The notes beneath the pieces are model-generated. The model saw only the letters and a program-made list of their open reading frames with translations. It was not told where the DNA came from and did not search any database. A stretch of DNA of 64,000 nt from Microcella flavibacter (lineage in GTDB: Bacteria > Actinomycetota > Actinomycetes > Actinomycetales > Microbacteriaceae): NCBI RefSeq assembly GCF_012530535.1, contig NZ_CP051299.1, positions 434,001-498,000 of the forward strand. Reading direction: 5' to 3'. Positions within the stretch are counted from its first letter, which is position 1. Every line of letters starts with the position of its first letter. Shown piece by piece: positions 4,946 through 14,000 of this stretch. The translations under genes and the position numbers were made by a program.

Positions 4946-5071
4946 GGGGGGTCCCGTCGTCGGCGACAAGTGTCGGAGAGCCTCAGTGTAAGCAGGGGGA
5001 GTGCCGTAATGACAGCACGGGATCGCCCGCATGCAAAGGGCGGCTGCAGGATGCCCGGCGCGAGCCGCGCG

Positions 5072-5437
5072 TCAGCCCACGCCCTCCGGCGCCCAGCGGC
5101 ACGCCGCGAGGTCGAGGCGGTAGGCGTCGGGCTCGCCGCGCGGGCCCCGCCACCGGAGCGGAGTGGACTCGCGCTCGTAGTGCTCGAGCGCCGCGGCCTC
5201 GTGGCCGGCGGGAGGGCGCGCGTCGGCGCGCACGACCCGCCACCACGGCAGGCTCGAGCCCTCGCCGGCCATGACGCGGCCGACCGCCCGGGCTCCGCGG
5301 GAGCCGAGGGCGGCGGCGACGTCTCCGTAGGTCATGACGCGGCCGGAGGGGATCTCGGCGACGACGACCAGCACGGCGCCGCCGAAATCGAGCGGCGCGG
5401 GTGCGTCGTCGCGCGCGGGCTGCGGGCGGGCATCCAT
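5072..5437 (-). CDS. Alkyltransferase-like (ATL) DNA-binding protein, MGMT family
   Basis: This small protein (121 aa) matches the DNA-binding domain of O6-alkylguanine alkyltransferases: IPSGRVMTYGDVA, then ARAVG carrying the arginine finger, then a PWWRVV motif. In active MGMT/Ogt the last motif is PCHRV, with the alkyl-accepting Cys. Here Cys is Trp and the next His is also Trp, so it cannot remove alkyl groups. The family is known to bind alkylated guanines and hand them to nucleotide excision repair. The gene lies downstream of the acetyltransferase on the same strand, 39 nt away, and is probably co-transcribed. Confidence 0.88.
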   Translation of the reverse strand: MDARPQPARDDAPAPLDFGGAVLVVVAEIPSGRVMTYGDVAAALGSRGARAVGRVMAGEGSSLPWWRVVRADARPPAGHEAAALEHYERESTPLRWRGPRGEPDAYRLDLAACRWAPEGVG

Positions 5438-5476
5438 CGCAGGGGAGGGGCGGAGGGGCGAGCGGGAGCGGCGGCG

Positions 5477-5929
5477 CTAGATGCCCAGCGAGCCGATCTT
5501 CTCGCCGTACTCGGTCTCGCCGACCTCGACGAAGCCGAGGCGCTGGAAGAAGGCGCCGGGGCCGTCGTCGCCGGTCTCCCAGATGACGGTGATCGCGTCG
5601 AAGCCGCGCGACTTTGCCTCGGCGGCGAGCTCGTGCACGGCGAAGCGGCCGACCCCCTGGCCCTGCTTGGTGGCGTCGACGTTCACCCGCCAGATGCAGG
5701 CGCGGAACTCGGGGCGGTCGTGCTCGGCGTCGAAGTTGCCGCGGATGAAGCCGACCACCTCGTCGCCGCGCAGGACGACGCGGGCCCAGGTGGTGGTCGG
5801 ATTGAGGTACGCGTCGGCCGCCGAGTACGAGACGGGCGTGACGTACTGCTCCTGCCCGGGGCGCAGGGTGAGGCCGTTGGCCGCCACGATGGTCTTCGCC
5901 GACAGCTCTTCCAGCCGCAGTTCGCTCAT
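5477..5929 (-). CDS. GNAT family N-acetyltransferase
   Basis: A GNAT-fold acetyltransferase of 150 aa. The acetyl-CoA binding loop is visible as KQGQGVGRF (Q-x-x-G-x-G), preceded by the beta-4 strand IWRVNVD. The C-terminal part, with FFQRLGF, is typical of the fold. It resembles the BltD/PaiA-type diamine acetyltransferases, but the substrate cannot be assigned. A -10-like TAGCCT (minus strand, 5936-5941) ends 6 nt before the ATG, so the transcript may be leaderless. The gene is divergent from icd. Confidence 0.85.
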   Translation of the reverse strand: MSELRLEELSAKTIVAANGLTLRPGQEQYVTPVSYSAADAYLNPTTTWARVVLRGDEVVGFIRGNFDAEHDRPEFRACIWRVNVDATKQGQGVGRFAVHELAAEAKSRGFDAITVIWETGDDGPGAFFQRLGFVEVGETEYGEKIGSLGI

Positions 5930-5972
5930 GTCCTCAGGCTATCGAGATCCCCGCGGACGGGGGCGGGAGATT

Positions 5973-6011
5973 TATCTCGATATCGAGATACCTCGGGCGA
6001 GCCGCTAGACT
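5973..6011 (+). promoter_or_regulatory. icd promoter with an 18-bp palindromic operator
   Basis: A perfect palindrome TATCTCGATATCGAGATA lies at 5973-5990. It covers a -35-like TCGAGA (5983-5988), which stands 17 nt from a -10-like TAGACT (6006-6011) upstream of icd. A repressor bound there would block the promoter. The half-site is compatible with MarR/PecS-type (TamR-like) or other winged-helix regulators; this assignment is inference. The site lies between divergent genes and could also affect the acetyltransferase. Confidence 0.65.
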
Positions 6012-6056
6012 TCTGCGGGCTCCGCCGCAGGTGCGACGGACACCAGAAAGGACCCC

Positions 6057-7271
6057 GTGCAGAAGATCAAGGTCGAAGGAACGGTCGTCGAGCTCGACGG
6101 CGATGAGATGACCCGCATCATCTGGCAGTTCATCAAGGACCGCCTCATCCACCCGTACCTCGACGTCACGCTCGAGTACTACGACCTCGGAATCCAGCAC
6201 CGCGACGAGACCGACGACCAGGTCACGATCGACGCGGCGCACGCCATCCAGAAGCACGGCGTCGGCGTCAAGTGCGCCACCATCACGCCCGACGAGGCGC
6301 GCGTCGAGGAGTTCGGCCTCAAGAAGATGTGGCGCAGCCCGAACGGCACGATCCGCAACATCCTCGGCGGCGTGATCTTCCGCGAGCCGATCATCATCTC
6401 GAACATCCCCCGCCTCGTGCCGGGCTGGAACAAGCCGATCATCATCGGCCGTCACGCCTTCGGCGACCAGTACCGCGCCACCGACTTCCTGTTCAAGGGC
6501 GAGGGCACGCTGACCGTCGAGTTCACCCCGAAGGACGGCGGCGAGGCCCAGAAGTTCGAGGTCTACCAGTCGCCCGGCGACGGCATCGCGCAGGTGCAGT
6601 ACAACCTCGACGCCTCGATCATCGACTTCGCGCGGGCCTCGCTCAACTACGGCCTCTCGCGCAACTACCCGGTGTACCTCTCGACGAAGAACACCATCCT
6701 CAAGGCCTACGACGGCCGCTTCAAGGATCTGTTCCAGGAGATCTACGAGAACGAGTTCAAGGACAAGTTCGAGGCCGCCGGCATCACCTACGAGCACCGC
6801 CTCATCGACGACATGGTCGCGAGCGCGATGAAGTGGGAGGGCGGCTACGTCTGGGCCTGCAAGAACTACGACGGCGACGTGCAGAGCGACACCGTGGCCC
6901 AGGGCTTCGGCTCGCTCGGCCTCATGACCAGCGTGCTCACGACGCCCGACGGCAGGATCGTCGAGGCCGAGGCGGCGCACGGCACGGTCACGCGCCACTA
7001 CCGTCAGCACCAGCAGGGCAAGCCGACGTCGACCAACCCGATCGCGTCGATCTTCGCCTGGACCCGCGGGCTCATGCACCGCGGCAAGCTCGACGGCAAC
7101 GCCGAGCTCATCACCTTCGCCGAGACCCTCGAGGACGTCGTCATCACGACCGTCGAGAGCGGCAAGATGACGAAGGACCTCGCGCTGCTCGTCGGCCCCG
7201 ACCAGCAGTGGCTCACCACCGAGGCCTTCCTCGAGGCCCTCGACGAGAACCTGCAGCAGCGCCTGGCCTAG
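6057..7271 (+). CDS. icd: NADP-dependent isocitrate dehydrogenase
   Basis: This TCA-cycle enzyme oxidatively decarboxylates isocitrate to 2-oxoglutarate and makes NADPH. The sequence is of the eukaryote-like homodimeric class (404 aa). It has the isocitrate-binding SPNGTIRN at residues 94-101, the Arg in [13 protein letters not shown] near residue 132, and the C-terminal [12 protein letters not shown] coenzyme region. The start is GTG at 6057, with AGAAAGGA (6045-6052) as ribosome-binding site. The gene is monocistronic and ends before a strong hairpin. Its promoter carries an 18-bp palindrome, so it is probably under specific transcriptional control. Confidence 0.97.
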
Positions 7272-7311
7272 CGCCGAGCGCGCGGTCGTCGACGACGGCC
7301 GCCAGAACGAG

Positions 7312-7342
7312 GGATGCCCGCGACGACTCGTCGCGGGCATCC
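7312..7342. terminator. Bidirectional hairpin terminator between icd and hsp20
   Basis: The arms GGATGCCCGCGACGA (7312-7326) and TCGTCGCGGGCATCC (7328-7342) are exact reverse complements. The real hairpin probably has a 12-bp stem and a 7-nt loop. It lies between two convergent genes and can serve both. Only a weak T-run follows, as is usual in high-GC actinobacteria. Confidence 0.75.
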
Positions 7343-7364
7343 TGCGTTCTCGGCAGAGGGCGGG

Positions 7365-7787
7365 CTAGGCCGAGACCTCCGCGCGATCCTGGGTCGTGGC
7401 GACGCTGATCTTGCGCGGCTTCGCCTTCTCGACCACGGGGATCATGACGCTCAGCACGCCGTTCTCGTAGTGCGCCGAGATGCCCTCGGTGTCGATGTCG
7501 TTGCCGAGGGTGAGCTGGCGCAGGAACGAGCCGGCGGGGCGCTCACGGGTGAGCCACTGCACGCCCTCCTGCGAGCGCGGGGTGCGCTCGGCGCGGATCG
7601 TCAGCAGCTGCCCGTCGACGTCGACGTCGACCGAGCCCGGGTCGATGCCGGGCAGATCGGCGCTGAGCACGAAGTGGTCGCCGTCGCGGTAGAGGTCCAT
7701 GGGCATGAGACGCGGGCTCTCGCGCCGGTCGAGCAGGCTGCCGGCCATGCGGTCGAACTCGCGGAACGGGTCGAAGAGCATCGACAT
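7365..7787 (-). CDS. Hsp20/alpha-crystallin family small heat-shock protein
   Basis: An ATP-independent holdase chaperone of 140 aa that binds unfolding proteins in the cytosol. The alpha-crystallin domain runs from about residue 30 to 125. It includes the strand VLSADLPGI, the VDVDVDGQLLTIRAER block and the hallmark YENGVLSVMIPV (A-x-x-x-G-V-L-like) near residue 107. A short tail with KPRKISV provides the I-x-V-type oligomerisation contact. The upstream region holds a promoter overlapped by a CIRCE element and followed by a HAIR element, so expression should be heat-induced through both HrcA and HspR. Confidence 0.95.
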   Translation of the reverse strand: MSMLFDPFREFDRMAGSLLDRRESPRLMPMDLYRDGDHFVLSADLPGIDPGSVDVDVDGQLLTIRAERTPRSQEGVQWLTRERPAGSFLRQLTLGNDIDTEGISAHYENGVLSVMIPVVEKAKPRKISVATTQDRAEVSA

Positions 7788-7837
7788 GGGGATCGTCCTC
7801 CTGGGTGACTGCCGCCCTCGCGGGCGGGGTTCCGAGA

Positions 7838-7858
7838 GTTGAGTCGGGGCGACTCAAC
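7838..7858 (-). promoter_or_regulatory. HAIR element (HspR operator) of hsp20
   Basis: GTTGAGT-N7-ACTCAAC is an exact inverted repeat. It matches the HspR-associated inverted repeat CTTGAGT-N7-ACTCAAG except for the outermost base pair. It lies just downstream of the hsp20 -10 box, where HspR binding would repress transcription. Confidence 0.88.
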
Positions 7859-7865
7859 TGCGGAT

Positions 7866-7895
7866 AAATTAGCACTCGACCCGCGAGAGTGCCAG
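7866..7895 (-). promoter_or_regulatory. hsp20 promoter overlapped by a CIRCE element (HrcA operator)
   Basis: On the minus strand TGGCAC (7889-7894) and TAATTT (7866-7871) form a -35/-10 pair with a 17-nt spacer. The CIRCE element TTAGCACTC-N9-GAGTGCCAG (7869-7895, plus-strand reading) covers both boxes. This is the HrcA operator; its right arm differs from the consensus in two bases. It occurs in nearly the same form upstream of groL at 62218. Confidence 0.9.
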
Positions 7896-7956
7896 CCCCC
7901 GCCGAGTACGTTCGTGCAGGGCGAACGGATGCCCCGCCGAGGCCGCCCGAGGGTGC

Positions 7957-9426
7957 TCAGTACCCCGCGAAGTAGTCCGTGCGCACGCGCTTCGCGCCGG
8001 CGGCGCGCAGGGCCGAGGCGCCCGCGGCGACCACGGCGGGGGAGCCCGAGACGTAGCCCCGGCGCTGCCCGATGTCGGGCACGTGCTCGCGCAGGGCATC
8101 CACCGTCAGCGCATCGCGATCGAGCACGACGATGCGCGCCCCCGCCTGCTCGAGCGTCTCGCGGTAGAGGTGCTCGTCGGGGCTCGAGGGCACGAGCACG
8201 GCGACGACGTCGCGCTGCTCGCCGCGGTGCGCGAGCTCGGCGAGCTGGCTCACGAAGGGGGTCACGCCGATGCCGCCCGCGACGAGCACCAACGGCGTCG
8301 CGGCATCCTTCGGCAGCACGAAGTCGCCGCTCACCTGCGTGGCGCGCACGAGCGAGCCCGGCTCGAGGGCGGCGAGCTCGCGCTTGAAGGACGAGCCCTC
8401 GGCGAGCATCCGGGTGCCGATGGCGACGTGCTCGGCGGACGGGGCCGAGGCGATGGAGAAGATGCGGCGGGTGCCGCGCACGTCGGCCTTGTGCGGCAGG
8501 TGCAGCTCGAGCCACTGGCCCGCCTCGAACGGCACCGGGCGGGTCGGGGTGAAGCGCAGCTCGACCGCGGAGTCGGAGAGGGGGCGCGAGTCGACGAGGC
8601 GCAGCGCGAAGCCGCGGCGGCGCGAGACCGCGAAACCGACGAGGTTGCCGACGACGAGGGCGAGCTCGGGGGAGTTCGCGAGCAGGAACGGGCCGACCGG
8701 CTGCGCGAAGGGCAGGAAGATGAGCAGGCCCGCGACGGCGGCGACGAGCACCTGCTGCCACCGCCGGGGCGGGAGGGTGAGGGGCTCGGTGAGCATGTAG
8801 CCGGCGAGGAACACCACGGGCGTCAGCAGCACAGCGTTCTGCAGCACGTCGAGCGCGGGCAGGCCGACCGCGATGCCGCGGCCCACGTACACGACGACCG
8901 CGACGGCGACGAAGACGACGCCGATCTCGAGCCGGCGCGTGCGGTCGAGCAGCAGCAGCGCGCCGATCGCGACCACCGGCAGCATCGCGGCGGTGCCGAT
9001 CCACCAGATGCCGACGGTGAGGCCGAAGAAGCCCGCGATGAGGACACCGGTCGCCGCGGGGTTGAGCAGGTGCCGCCCGCGCCAGACGAGCAGGTACTTC
9101 GACAGCGCGGCGAGGACTCCGGCGGCGGCGGCGCCGACGAGGCTCATGGTCGTGGCCTGCGGCGGCACGAGGCAGGCGATGATGAGCGCGGTGATGACGC
9201 TCGACTCGCGATGCGGCACGACGCGCGCGAGGCGCGCCGCGACCTCGTTCGCGCCGATCGTGGCGACGAGCACCACGCCGGTGACGCCGAGCAGGCCGAG
9301 CGGGTCGACCCCGATGATCCCGACGGCGCCGAGCACGACGCCCATGACGATGACGGCGGCGAGGGCGCCGACCGTGAGGCGGTACATGCTGACGCGGCCC
9401 GTGACGGCGTCGATCGCGGCTCTCAT
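7957..9426 (-). CDS. RnfD/NqrB-like membrane domain fused to a ferredoxin/flavodoxin-reductase domain
   Basis: A 489-aa fusion. Residues about 15-275 form a polytopic membrane domain of the RnfD/NqrB type, with HLLNPAATG corresponding to the family's FNPA region. Residues about 285-489 form an FNR-type reductase with RRIFSIASAP (FAD contact), VAGGIGVTPF (NAD(P) contact) and an aromatic C-terminus. I see no clear SGAT flavinylation motif in the membrane half. The likely job is to pass electrons from cytosolic NAD(P)H across the membrane. The gene overlaps apbE by 4 nt and follows it and the FMN-binding lipoprotein in one operon, so the lipoprotein's flavin is the probable acceptor. The final electron acceptor is unknown. 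Confidence 0.85.
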   Translation of the reverse strand: MRAAIDAVTGRVSMYRLTVGALAAVIVMGVVLGAVGIIGVDPLGLLGVTGVVLVATIGANEVAARLARVVPHRESSVITALIIACLVPPQATTMSLVGAAAAGVLAALSKYLLVWRGRHLLNPAATGVLIAGFFGLTVGIWWIGTAAMLPVVAIGALLLLDRTRRLEIGVVFVAVAVVVYVGRGIAVGLPALDVLQNAVLLTPVVFLAGYMLTEPLTLPPRRWQQVLVAAVAGLLIFLPFAQPVGPFLLANSPELALVVGNLVGFAVSRRRGFALRLVDSRPLSDSAVELRFTPTRPVPFEAGQWLELHLPHKADVRGTRRIFSIASAPSAEHVAIGTRMLAEGSSFKRELAALEPGSLVRATQVSGDFVLPKDAATPLVLVAGGIGVTPFVSQLAELAHRGEQRDVVAVLVPSSPDEHLYRETLEQAGARIVVLDRDALTVDALREHVPDIGQRRGYVSGSPAVVAAGASALRAAGAKRVRTDYFAGY

Positions 9427-10334
9427 CGGAACAGCTCACCCTTCCAGTCGGCGCTCGACTCGATCGAGCCGTCCGAGAGCATCCTCACCCATGCGACGCC
9501 CAGCCGGTCGCCGATCGCGTGCGGATCGCCGAGCAGCAGCGCGGTGGCCGCCCCGTCGGCCACGAGCGCCGAGTCGGCGACCGCGAAGGTGCCGATCACG
9601 CCCTCGTCGATCGGGCGGCCGGTGACGGCGTCGACGATGTGGTGCAGGCCCGCGCCCCAGCGGCGGCGATCGAGCGCGCTCGCGCACAGGGCGCGGCCGT
9701 CGGCGAGCTCGACGACGCCGATCGCCTTGGCCGGGTTGGCCGGGTTCTGCAGCGCGACGCGCAGCCCCGCACCGCCCCAGGCGCGCAGGTCGCCGCTCGC
9801 GTCCACGATCGGGTCGACCACGTCGTGCTCGCGCAGCACCTCGCCGACGAGGTCGACGAGCAAGCCCTTGCCCGCGGCGCCGACGTCGAGCGTCACCGGG
9901 GCGACGGCGTCGAGCCGCAGATCGCCGTCGGCGGAGCGCACGAGCGTGATCGCGTCCTCCCACACGGGCGCCGCGAGCGGCGGGCCCGAGGGTTCGAGCC
10001 GGTAGGCGGCGTCGTAGCCGAGGCGCTCGAGCGAGGCTCCGACGAGCGGGCTCATGCGGCCGCCGGTGAGGGCGTAGAGCTGCTCGTACAGGCCGAGCAG
10101 CGGTGCGGCATCCTGCGGCAGCGGCCACGAGCCGGGGGCGGCGGCGATGCGGGCGACGAGGGAGTCGTCACGGAACCGCGACCAGTCGGCGTCGAAGCGC
10201 GCGATGCGCCGGGCGACCGCCGCGCGCGCCTCGGCGGGGATGCCGCCGGGGGCCTCGATCGACCAGGGGACGCCGATCGCCTCGAACGTCCAGGCCTCAT
10301 CGACCGGGGCCGAGGCCTCAGCCGACGAGAGCAT
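9423..10334 (-). CDS. apbE: FAD:protein FMN transferase (ApbE)
   Basis: ApbE transfers FMN from FAD to a Thr or Ser of target proteins outside the cytoplasm. The 303-aa sequence shows the family pattern: RFDADWSRF near the start, LDVGAAGKG (catalytic, magnesium-binding loop), VDASGDLRAWG, and the late motif HHIVDAVTGRP. No signal peptide or lipobox is visible, so it lacks an obvious export signal even though its likely target is a lipoprotein. It overlaps the FMN-binding lipoprotein gene by 17 nt and the RnfD-like gene by 4 nt, so the three proteins are almost certainly co-expressed. Confidence 0.93.
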   Translation of the reverse strand: MLSSAEASAPVDEAWTFEAIGVPWSIEAPGGIPAEARAAVARRIARFDADWSRFRDDSLVARIAAAPGSWPLPQDAAPLLGLYEQLYALTGGRMSPLVGASLERLGYDAAYRLEPSGPPLAAPVWEDAITLVRSADGDLRLDAVAPVTLDVGAAGKGLLVDLVGEVLREHDVVDPIVDASGDLRAWGGAGLRVALQNPANPAKAIGVVELADGRALCASALDRRRWGAGLHHIVDAVTGRPIDEGVIGTFAVADSALVADGAATALLLGDPHAIGDRLGVAWVRMLSDGSIESSADWKGELFR

Positions 10335-10758
10335 CCGCCTTGATCGCCTCGAGGGCCTCGAGGAACCCGCCGCTCGTGAGCGACGAGCCCGCGACCCGGG
10401 TGACCTGCAGCTCGTCGATGTCCTTGCCGACGACCTCGGCCTCGATGCCGCCGACGAACTGGTCCTGGTAGTACTGCGTCGTCGAGTTGCTGCCGCCGGG
10501 CGTCACCGCCACGGCCGTCACGATGTCGCCCTCGAGGGTGAGCTGCACGATGACCGACTCGGTGCCGTTCGGCGACTGGTAGGCGCCGCTCGCGCTGTAC
10601 TCGCCGTCGGTGTACTCGGCCGAGGTGTCGGCGGGGCCGGCGGGCCCCTCGGCGGCCGCATCGCCCGCCGCCGAGCATCCGGCGAGCGTGCCGAGCAGGG
10701 CGAAGGATGCCGCTGCCGCGGACGCGGGAGCGGAGAACGAGCGGGCGCGAGAGGTCAT
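10318..10758 (-). CDS. FMN-binding domain lipoprotein, likely flavinylation target
   Basis: A small secreted lipoprotein (146 aa). The signal peptide ends in the lipobox LAGC. The mature part is an FMN-binding (NqrC/RnfG-like) domain with VIVQLTLEGDIVTAVAV and the C-terminal SSLTSGGFLEAL; the Thr there is the expected FMN attachment residue. The start is the ATG at 10758, with GGAAG five bases upstream on the minus strand. The first gene of a three-gene operon with apbE and the RnfD-FNR fusion, it probably carries electrons on the outer face of the membrane. Confidence 0.88.
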   Translation of the reverse strand: MTSRARSFSAPASAAAASFALLGTLAGCSAAGDAAAEGPAGPADTSAEYTDGEYSASGAYQSPNGTESVIVQLTLEGDIVTAVAVTPGGSNSTTQYYQDQFVGGIEAEVVGKDIDELQVTRVAGSSLTSGGFLEALEAIKADALVG

Positions 10759-10826
10759 GGGGTCTTCCGGAGGAGGTCGTGGGCGTCGATGCGGGGCGAG
10801 GGCGACGTGATCAGCATCCCGACGCC

Positions 10827-10971
10827 CGGTGGGTATTCGCTGTGCTCGGTGGGAGCGATTGCTGCACGGTCGATGCGAGGCGCCGAGGATTCGGTGGATA
10901 CCCCGGTGGACGCAGAGTTCACCCGGTGGAAACAGAAAGGGTTGTCTACCCGCTTTCGGGGGGCTTATGGT
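10827..10971 (+). promoter_or_regulatory. Upstream region of the subtilase gene: five CGGTGG direct repeats and a promoter
   Basis: CGGTGG occurs five times in the same orientation (10827, 10847, 10892, 10904 and 10924). Directly downstream lie a -35-like TTGTCT (10942-10947) and a -10-like TATGGT (10966-10971) with an 18-nt spacer. The arrangement looks like an array of activator sites ending next to a promoter. The regulator is unknown. The rest of the 280-bp gap, towards the FMN lipoprotein gene, shows nothing else. Confidence 0.5.
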
Positions 10972-11041
10972 GAGGCCACCACCCGAGCCCGACGACGACG
11001 TCGGGCCGTTCACGCCCTCCACGAGAAGGATGCACACCGCT

Positions 11042-14000
11042 GTGACACTAAGGGAGAGCCGCTCGTCGGCCCAGCACCGTCCACACCGTCCGCTCGCCCG
11101 AACCGCCGCAGCAGCCGCCACCGCGGCGCTCGTGGCCGCGAGCCTGCTGACGGGCACCGCCGCGAACGCGGCCCCCGGCGCTCCGGGAACCGGGGTCGGC
11201 GCGATCGACTTCGAGGCCGGGCGCTACATCGTGACGCTCGCCGAGCCGGCGGTCGCCGCCTACGAGGGCGGCGTGCCGGGCATCCCCGCCACCGCCCCCG
11301 AGGAGGGCGAGCAGCTCGAGGCCCGCCGCGCCCCCGTCGCCGACTACCGCTCGCACCTGCAGCAGAAGCAGCAGGAGGTCGCGGCCGAGGCCGACGTCAC
11401 CATCGACTCCTCGTACACCGTCGCGATCAACGCCTTCGCCGCCGAGCTCACCGCCGAGCAGGCGGCCGCGCTCATCACGAGCCGCGACGTGCTGCAGGTC
11501 GTGCCCGACGAGATGAAGCAGATCCAGGCCGAGACCGGCACCGAGTTCCTCGGGCTGGACGGCCCGGGCGGCGTCTGGGAGGCCGTCGGCGGCGCCGAGA
11601 CCGCCGGGGAGGGCGTCGTCGTCGGGATCCTCGACACCGGCATCGCCCCCGAGAACCCGTCCTTCGCCGGTGAGGCGCTCGGCACCGCGCCGGGCTCCGA
11701 GCCCTACCTCGACGGCAGCAGCATCGTCTTCGAGAAGAGCGACGGCGGCACCTTCGTCGGCGAGTGCGTCGAGGGCGTGCAGTTCAGCGCCGACGACTGC
11801 TCGACCAAGATCGTCAGCGCGCGCTACTTCGTCGACGGCTTCGGTGCGAACCGCATCGGCGACGCCAGCACCGGCCCCGGCGAGTTCCTCTCGCCCCGCG
11901 ACGGCGACGGCCACGGCTCGCACACCGGCGGCACCGCCGCGGGCAACCACCGCGTCGGCACGACCGTGAGCGGCATCGACTTCGGCCCGATCTCGGGCGT
12001 CGCCCCCGCCGCCAAGGTCGCCTCGTACAAGGTCTGCTGGAACGGTCCCGACGCGACGGTCACCACCGACGACGGATGCGCGACGAGCGACCTGCTCGCC
12101 GGCATCGACCAGGCCGTGCTCGACGGCGTCGACGTCATCAACTACTCGATCGGCGGCGGCGCGGCCACCACCACGTACTCGCCCACCGACGACGCCTTCC
12201 TCGGCGCCGCCGCGGCCGGCGTGTTCGTGGCCGCCTCGGCCGGCAACTCCGGCCCCGGCGCGTCCACGCTCGACAACGCGAGCCCGTGGATCACGACGGT
12301 CGCCGCGAGCACCATCCCCGCGTACCAGGGCACGGTCACGCTCGGTGACGGGCAGGCCTTCGCGGGAGCATCCATCACGGTCGACATGTCGGAGGACGCT
12401 GAGCCGCTCACCGGACCGCTCGTCCCGTCGCGCACCCTGGCGGCGGCCGGCGCGCCCGACCCGGAGCTCTGCGGACCGGGCACGCTCGACCCCGCGCTCG
12501 TGAGCGAGGGCGACATCGTGCTCTGCGAGCGCGGCGTCTACGACCGCGTCGCCAAGTCGGCCGAGGTCGCCCGCGTGGGCGGCGCCGGCATGGTGCTCGT
12601 CAACGTGACCCCCGGATCGGTGGACACCGACACGCACAGCGTGCCGACCGTGCACCTCGACGCCGTCTACTACGACGAGGTCACCGCCTACGCCGCCACC
12701 GAGGGCGCCACGGCGACCCTCACGGCGGGCAACTCGACCGACGTCGTGACCCCGGTGCCCCAGGTCGCCGGCTTCTCGTCGCGCGGCCCGGTGCTCGCCG
12801 ACGGCAGCGACATCCTCAAGCCCGACATCTCGGCGCCCGGCGTCTCGATCCTCGCCGCGGTCTCCAACCGCGAGGGGGAGGACCCGGCCTTCGGGTTCCT
12901 CAGCGGCACCTCGATGTCGTCGCCGCACATCGCGGGCCTCGCGGCCCTCTACCTCGGTGAGCGCCCGACCGCGACGCCCGCCGAGATCAAGTCGGCCATC
13001 ATGACGACGGCGTACGACACGCTCGCCGCCGACGGCTCGACCGTGACCGACCCCTTCACCCAGGGTGCCGGCCATGCCGACCCGACCCGCTTCTTCGAGC
13101 CGGGCCTGGTCTACCTCAACGGCGTTCCCGACTGGCTCGGCTACCTGCAGGGCATCGGCTACGACGCCGGCGTCGAGCCGATCGACGGCAGCGACCTCAA
13201 CCTCGCCTCGATCGCCGTAGGTACGCTCACGGCGCCCGAGCAGGTCACCCGCACGGTGACGGCCACGCAGGCCGGCACCTTCGAGGCCAGCATCCAGGGC
13301 CTCGCGGGCATCGAGGCGACCGTCGAGCCCTCGACGCTCACCTTCGGCGCCGCGGGCGAATCGCAGGAGTTCACCGTCACCTTCGCCCGCACCGATGCGG
13401 CGCTCGACGCGTACGCCTCGGGCTCGCTCACCTGGGCGTCGGGCGAGACGACGGTGCGCAGCCCGATCGTCGTGCAGCCCGTCACGATCGTGGCCCCGGC
13501 CGCGGTCGAGGGCGAGGGCACGACGGGCTCGGTGGACATCGCGGTGACCCCCGGCGGCACGGGCGACATCGCCCTGTCGACGACGGGCCTCTCGCTCGGC
13601 GAGCGCCTGCCGAACGCGACCGACCCGGAGGCCGAGAACTCGGGCTCCGGCGTCACCGGCGACTTCGCGGAGTACGTGGTGACCGTGCCGGAGGGGTCGG
13701 CGTTCACGCGCTTCGACCTCGACTCGGCCGATGACATCGCCGACCTCGACCTCATCGTCTACCAGCTCGACGCCGCCGGCACCCCCATCGCGGGGTGGCA
13801 GTCGGCGACGGGCTCGGCCGATGAGCGGATCGACCTGGTCGAGCCGGCGGCGGCCGACTACGCCGTCTTCGTCGACGTCTACTCGGCAGCGACCGAGACG
13901 GCCTGGGACATGACCGTCACCTCGATCGTCGAGGGGGGCGCCCCGCTCGCCCTCGACCCGGCCGTCATCGCCGGCGTGCAGGGCGAGGAGTCGATCGTCA

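Follow-up and report, generated by a model that had tools for sequence, protein, structure and literature searches.

An Nqr/Rnf-like flavinylation module in Microcella flavibacter with a predicted serine acceptor and an apparently cytosolic flavin transferase

Three overlapping genes of Microcella flavibacter, located within the 64,000-nucleotide stretch of its genome analyzed here (the window; the genome is a single 2.62 Mb contig), encode the published Nqr/Rnf-like flavinylation system (PMC8238504, PMC11334425). Judged from sequence and structure models, the module is real, conserved, and functional-looking; it belongs to a known kind but stands apart by an acceptor variant shared across the lineage and by a topology yet to be explained. 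Two traits go beyond the literature searched: a predicted serine at the flavin acceptor position, set in [ASG]GSSLT rather than [ST]GA[ST] and accompanied by a co-segregating ApbE class, and a module ApbE that carries no export signal and appears to be cytosolic. In the reading that we consider probable, the trio would form an outward electron wire, with FMN placed on Ser126 of its lipoprotein by the co-segregating cytosolic ApbE before or during Sec export. A preliminary description of this DNA had singled out the compact arrangement as deserving functional work; the arrangement is already on record under a name and with a model, and so is its lack of a membrane flavin site.

Results

Gene Order and Neighborhood

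The genes lie head to tail on the minus strand between positions 7957 and 10758 of the window and encode an FMN-binding lipoprotein as putative extracytosolic flavin carrier (10318-10758, 146 aa), a class A ApbE flavin transferase without export signal (9423-10334, 303 aa), and a fusion of a membrane domain to an FNR-type reductase (7957-9426, 489 aa), with overlaps of 17 nt between the lipoprotein and ApbE genes and 4 nt between the ApbE and fusion genes. Their initial description as an overlapping trio of FMN-binding lipoprotein, ApbE, and RnfD-like/FNR fusion is borne out by the coordinates, sequence profiles, folds, and conserved gene order.

Upstream of the trio lies a divergent S8 protease gene, whereas an Hsp20 gene (7365-7787, minus) follows directly downstream on the same strand, with isocitrate dehydrogenase next on the other strand. 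A fourth partner, suggested earlier, did not emerge when flanking genes were clustered across loci: none is conserved, Hsp20 adjoins the trio, in the same orientation, in 9 of the 39 genera of the family, and relatives of the isocitrate dehydrogenase or S8 protease occur near the trio in some loci. This proximity is apparently that of an inherited neighborhood, and all three were therefore dropped as partner candidates. No further RNF/NQR subunits were noticed among the open reading frames at 5000-14000, and promoter and terminator scans, which carry no information at this G+C content, returned no matches.

Distribution

A first contig scan yielded 80 loci, all with the fusion, 69 with the lipoprotein, and 66 with ApbE, where the misses include genes on cut contigs. 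A second set of 123 loci (L081-L123 and L146-L225), drawn from surveys, represents 39 family genera and part of the positive genomes; in these related and hence not independent loci, which include the window itself and two genomes that occur twice, lipoprotein and ApbE are each present in 119. The order lipoprotein-ApbE-fusion on one strand holds in 60/80 and 114/123 loci, respectively.

A survey of the trio across Microbacteriaceae had been proposed as a check, and with a profile of the membrane domain the module was found in 118 of 299 family genomes and 39 of 85 genera. Within the genus the profile matches 22 of 26 genomes; completeness reaches at least 90% in 19 of the genomes, and every one of these is matched. 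Across the phylum, 8 of 396 genomes, the window's own included, score below E 1e-40, out of 46 matches in all that count RnfD and other relatives among them. The fusion has its closest named relatives in Microcella. ApbE is present in 118/118 module genomes vs. 88/181 family genomes without the module (Fisher p 2e-26, kinship not taken into account); a single ApbE match is found in 66 of the 118.

Several loci have additional genes close by. A small DoxX/DoxD-like membrane protein is encoded near the module in L034, L035, L050, L061, L071, and L072 (by Pfam in L034), all loci of the other motif class described below and mostly from candidate phyla. A sensor histidine kinase is found near the module in L035, L049, L054, L060, L069, and L071 (by Pfam in L035), beside which, in a similar set of loci, a putative response regulator can be read from the sequence.

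A Membrane/Reductase Fusion without the RnfD-Type Flavin Site

The fusion comprises an RnfD/NqrB-like membrane domain devoid of the flavinylated loop (residues 1-265; 8632-9426, minus) and an FNR/NqrF-like FAD- and NAD(P)H-binding domain (residues 271-489; 7957-8616, minus). In Pfam terms the former stays below the cut-off (NQR2_RnfD_RnfE, PF03116, 19.6 bits against 27.7), as do all but 1 of 11 tested fusions of the clade, and the latter passes (NAD_binding_1, PF00175, 23.2 bits against 22). The structure model (mean pLDDT 91.8) places both halves more firmly: VIA-align 2 superposes residues 13-270 on RnfD (8ahx_D) with Z 23.5 and rmsd 2.7 over 235 aligned residues and residues 7-270 on NqrB (8a1t_B) with Z 21.9, while residues 268-488 match NqrF (7qu5) with Z 22.8. 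Aligned by hhalign to a set of RnfD proteins, the membrane-domain profile reaches a probability of 96.6 and E 5.8e-10; searched against solved chains the same sequence profile found nothing at E 1, whereas the fold comparison did match. Conserved stretches of the reductase domain include RRxFSIAS, GGIG[VI]TP, and a C-terminal DxFxG[YF].

The flavin loop kept in RnfD proteins, D[GA]Vx[AGS]A[TS]P, aligns to a gap in the fusion, and a [ST][GSA]A[ST] string turns up there in 3 of 42 fusions but is not conserved, in agreement with the early remark that the membrane half has no obvious site of this kind. Three loci have a broken fusion gene, with an internal stop in L123 and a coding region divided over two open frames in both L067 and L171, reflecting either decay or sequencing error.

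A Variant Acceptor Motif Paired with an ApbE Class

The lipoprotein carries a lipobox, L-A-G-C28 (10675-10686, minus, read from the sequence), and in the 123-locus set a lipobox follows a hydrophobic stretch in 117/117 of the lipoproteins with the GSSLT motif discussed below. Against Pfam FMN_bind it scores 15.2 bits, below the cut-off of 22 that 1 of 11 tested clade members passes; the profile of its family nevertheless matches the FMN-binding domain 8p2a with E 1.9e-16. The AF2 model (mean pLDDT 81.9) becomes ordered at about residue 50, with pLDDT above 85 in the domain that follows, for which Foldseek again gives 8p2a as the best match, weakly (E 0.019), with nothing at E 0.001.

According to passages of PMC12052999, the ApbE substrate motif is D-x-x-[ST]-G-A-[ST], with FMN on the last residue. 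At this position the window reads T-R-V-A-G-S-S and thus does not conform to the canonical form: there is no Ala before the acceptor and, in the window, no Asp at -6 either. Aligned through the profile, the site GATYTS in 8p2a falls opposite a variant motif, A-G-S-S-L-T (residues 123-128; 10375-10392, minus), and on this reading Ser126 (codon 10381-10383, minus) is the predicted FMN acceptor. The threonine acceptor assigned at the outset accordingly gives way to a serine, within a GSSLT stretch preserved in nearly all relatives: the loci of family and phylum supply 119 lipoproteins, of which 117 read [ASG]GSSLT and the remaining 2 canonical GAT. In the tests reported in the same source, serine is a poorer FMN acceptor than threonine (PMC12052999). 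The GSSLT motif was not found stated in the literature searched, which comprised main texts and mostly openly accessible papers.

Both GSSLT and GA[ST] forms are present in the 80-locus set, and each is accompanied by its own ApbE class, A being defined by RRxW...HH (with GSSLT) and B by ATSG (with GA[ST]): we count 143 pairs of GSSLT with class A, 30 of GA[ST] with class B, none crossed, and 6 unclassified. In a quick tree of 76 fusions, Actinobacteria and three Saccharibacteria share one side of a fully supported branch, all with GSSLT wherever a lipoprotein was found; GSSLT is likewise present in two Uhrbacteria and one further bacterium. Two changes between motif states suffice on this quick tree, and given so few evolutionary events the pairing amounts to co-segregation rather than proof of co-adaptation.

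The three Saccharibacteria (L017, L026, and L031) have the actinobacterial module type and branch beside it, possibly through transfer to or from Actinobacteria or through a binning error. An uncultured contig (L048:3368-5673, plus) encodes two large lipoprotein-like proteins of 450 and 310 aa with the intermediate motifs GGASLT and TGASLT.

An ApbE without Export Signal

The window's ApbE is a clear PF02424 member (E 5.6e-36, 124.9 bits against a cut-off of 25.6) and keeps the conserved stretches DVGAAGKG, CASA, HHIVD, and ADGAATAL. The genome encodes this one ApbE and no second. That it has no visible export signal, as originally noted, is upheld by the lack of an earlier in-frame start codon upstream of 10334 and by scans across the family. 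These scans, which rest on hydropathy rather than SignalP, project the ApbE start to the first strand and flag a hydrophobic 11-mer before that strand together with a lipobox rule. They detect a signal in 0/66 module ApbEs of the 80-locus set and 1/119 of the 123-locus set, where the single flag, in L153, falls on a mildly hydrophobic extension of the open frame, as compared with 24 of 31 comparison ApbEs, namely 30 from the phylum picked by best score plus that of E. coli, whose lipoprotein signal the scan detects. The notion that this trait is special to the module was rejected, since 19 of 20 family ApbEs from outside the module likewise go unflagged.

With no signal on ApbE while the lipoproteins carry a lipobox, the enzyme is predicted to be cytosolic and its substrate exported; with no second ApbE in the genome, FMN attachment probably precedes Sec export of the prelipoprotein. 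Tat export of a pre-flavinylated protein as the general route was rejected, because a Tat-like signal is present in 1 of 117 GSSLT lipoproteins. In the literature searched we found no precedent for Sec export of an FMN-bearing chain and, in main texts, no mention of a lipoprotein substrate that is exported while its ApbE stays in the cytosol.

ApbE genes are arranged differently in a few loci. In L198, L205, L206, and L221, all of genus g17, no ApbE lies between the adjoining lipoprotein and fusion genes, and two g17 genomes (G121 and G231) have an extra fusion copy adjoining an ApbE. In a Saccharibacteria contig that bears the trio, the gene of a second ApbE neighbors that of a separate FNR-type reductase (L060:7473-9485, minus).

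Discussion

Gene order, folds, conservation, the motif pairing, and the missing ApbE export signal are direct observations, and an Nqr/Rnf-like electron wire that runs one way across the membrane would accommodate them. In such a wire, electrons from cytosolic NAD(P)H would pass to the FAD of the C-terminal reductase domain, from there to a flavin bound non-covalently within the RnfD-like membrane domain, and on to the covalent FMN of the surface lipoprotein and a terminal acceptor. The lipoprotein would take its FMN on Ser126 of GSSLT, as read by the co-segregating ApbE class, with the enzyme staying in the cytosol and FMN most likely joined to the prelipoprotein no later than its passage through Sec. 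We infer the flavin content, the direction of electron flow, and the timing of flavinylation. The same path, likewise with no membrane flavin site, is given by the published model in the portions of Huang et al. (mSystems 2024) that treat this system, where the membrane/FMN-bind pair was modelled and it was proposed that the flavin of the lipoprotein may visit a site of non-covalent flavin binding in the membrane domain (PMC11334425); NAD(P)H-to-FMN direction is also proposed in the relevant passages of Meheust et al. (eLife 2021; PMC8238504). Of the earlier interpretation, the path from NAD(P)H through the FNR and RnfD-like domains to the lipoprotein thus stands on fold and conservation, together with both of its oddities, but its threonine acceptor does not.

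The proposed topology would fall if ApbE acted outside the membrane after all, reaching it by an unrecognized route or by piggy-back export and flavinylating the lipoprotein after export in textbook style. Where the substrate is extracytosolic, the ApbEs described so far are indeed mostly exported, those of cytosolic location on record having soluble substrates (both as given in passages of PMC12052999), but the near absence of signals among module ApbEs, the lack of an earlier start codon in the window, and the single ApbE of the genome make this quite unlikely; the 1/20 non-module family ApbEs that were flagged leave no exported back-up enzyme in view either. A different objection is that GSSLT marks a lost covalent attachment, with flavin held loosely or absent and ApbE serving another protein. 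The departure from the consensus motif and the shortfall of most tested clade members against FMN_bind would fit such a loss, which is, however, hard to reconcile with near-universal retention of GSSLT, its two exceptions being canonical, with ApbE kept in every module genome, and with a window genome in which the lipoprotein is the single FMN-bind protein of its kind found; we regard it as very improbable.

The last alternative concerns the far end of the chain, where electrons might instead flow inward, or the module might be a flavin-based oxidase or ferric reductase without dedicated partner, using O2, Fe(III), or quinone. It agrees with the want of a conserved fourth gene, with the use of O2 by a Streptomyces three-FMN protein (in the part of PMC12052999 that describes it), and with a VIT1 iron transporter in six published clusters (likewise for PMC8238504). 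Save for inward flow it overlaps with the outward wire rather than replacing it, and we hold it to be unlikely, if worth keeping in mind.

Extended to the lineage, the outward-wire reading would have Actinobacteria, along with a few Saccharibacteria and Uhrbacteria, use a GSSLT serine code, their own cytosolic ApbE class, and Sec export of an FMN-loaded lipoprotein. We offer this tentatively, as somewhat short of an even bet; if true, the usual order of export and then flavinylation would be reversed, and FAD export would not be needed. Should the present reading hold, the ApbE motif as now accepted would be drawn too narrowly, leaving a large set of extracytosolic flavoproteins of Actinobacteria undercounted: the published survey, in its passages on NQR/RNF-like clusters, lists 127 in 127 genomes, mainly from Actinobacteria and candidate phyla (PMC8238504), vs. 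118 of the 299 sampled genomes of one family here. It would also mean that export of a polypeptide already carrying flavin is feasible, a point of relevance to flavin supply to the bacterial surface.

Among known proteins, domain 2 of SaFMN3 (8p2a) is the best-matching solved FMN-bind domain, although its acceptor position is a Thr in GATYTS. The missing signal peptide is shared with the cytosolic ApbE of the Klebsiella soluble fumarate reductase, whose substrate stays inside, as described in part of PMC12052999, whereas the substrate here is a lipoprotein for export. With Na+-NQR and RNF (NqrB/C/F; RnfD/G) the module has homologous membrane, FMN-carrying, and reductase folds in common, yet it has no other adjacent subunits, the membrane flavin site is deleted, and its path would not loop back to the cytosol. 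Closest is the Nqr/Rnf-like system, with the same NqrB/RnfD domain fused to an NAD-binding domain, an extracytosolic FMN-bind subunit, ApbE nearby, a missing membrane flavinylation Thr, and occurrence in Actinobacteria and candidate phyla; the module described here departs from it in its predicted Ser acceptor in GSSLT instead of [ST]GA[ST], in an ApbE without export signal, and in that Pfam cut-offs miss most tested members of the window's clade.
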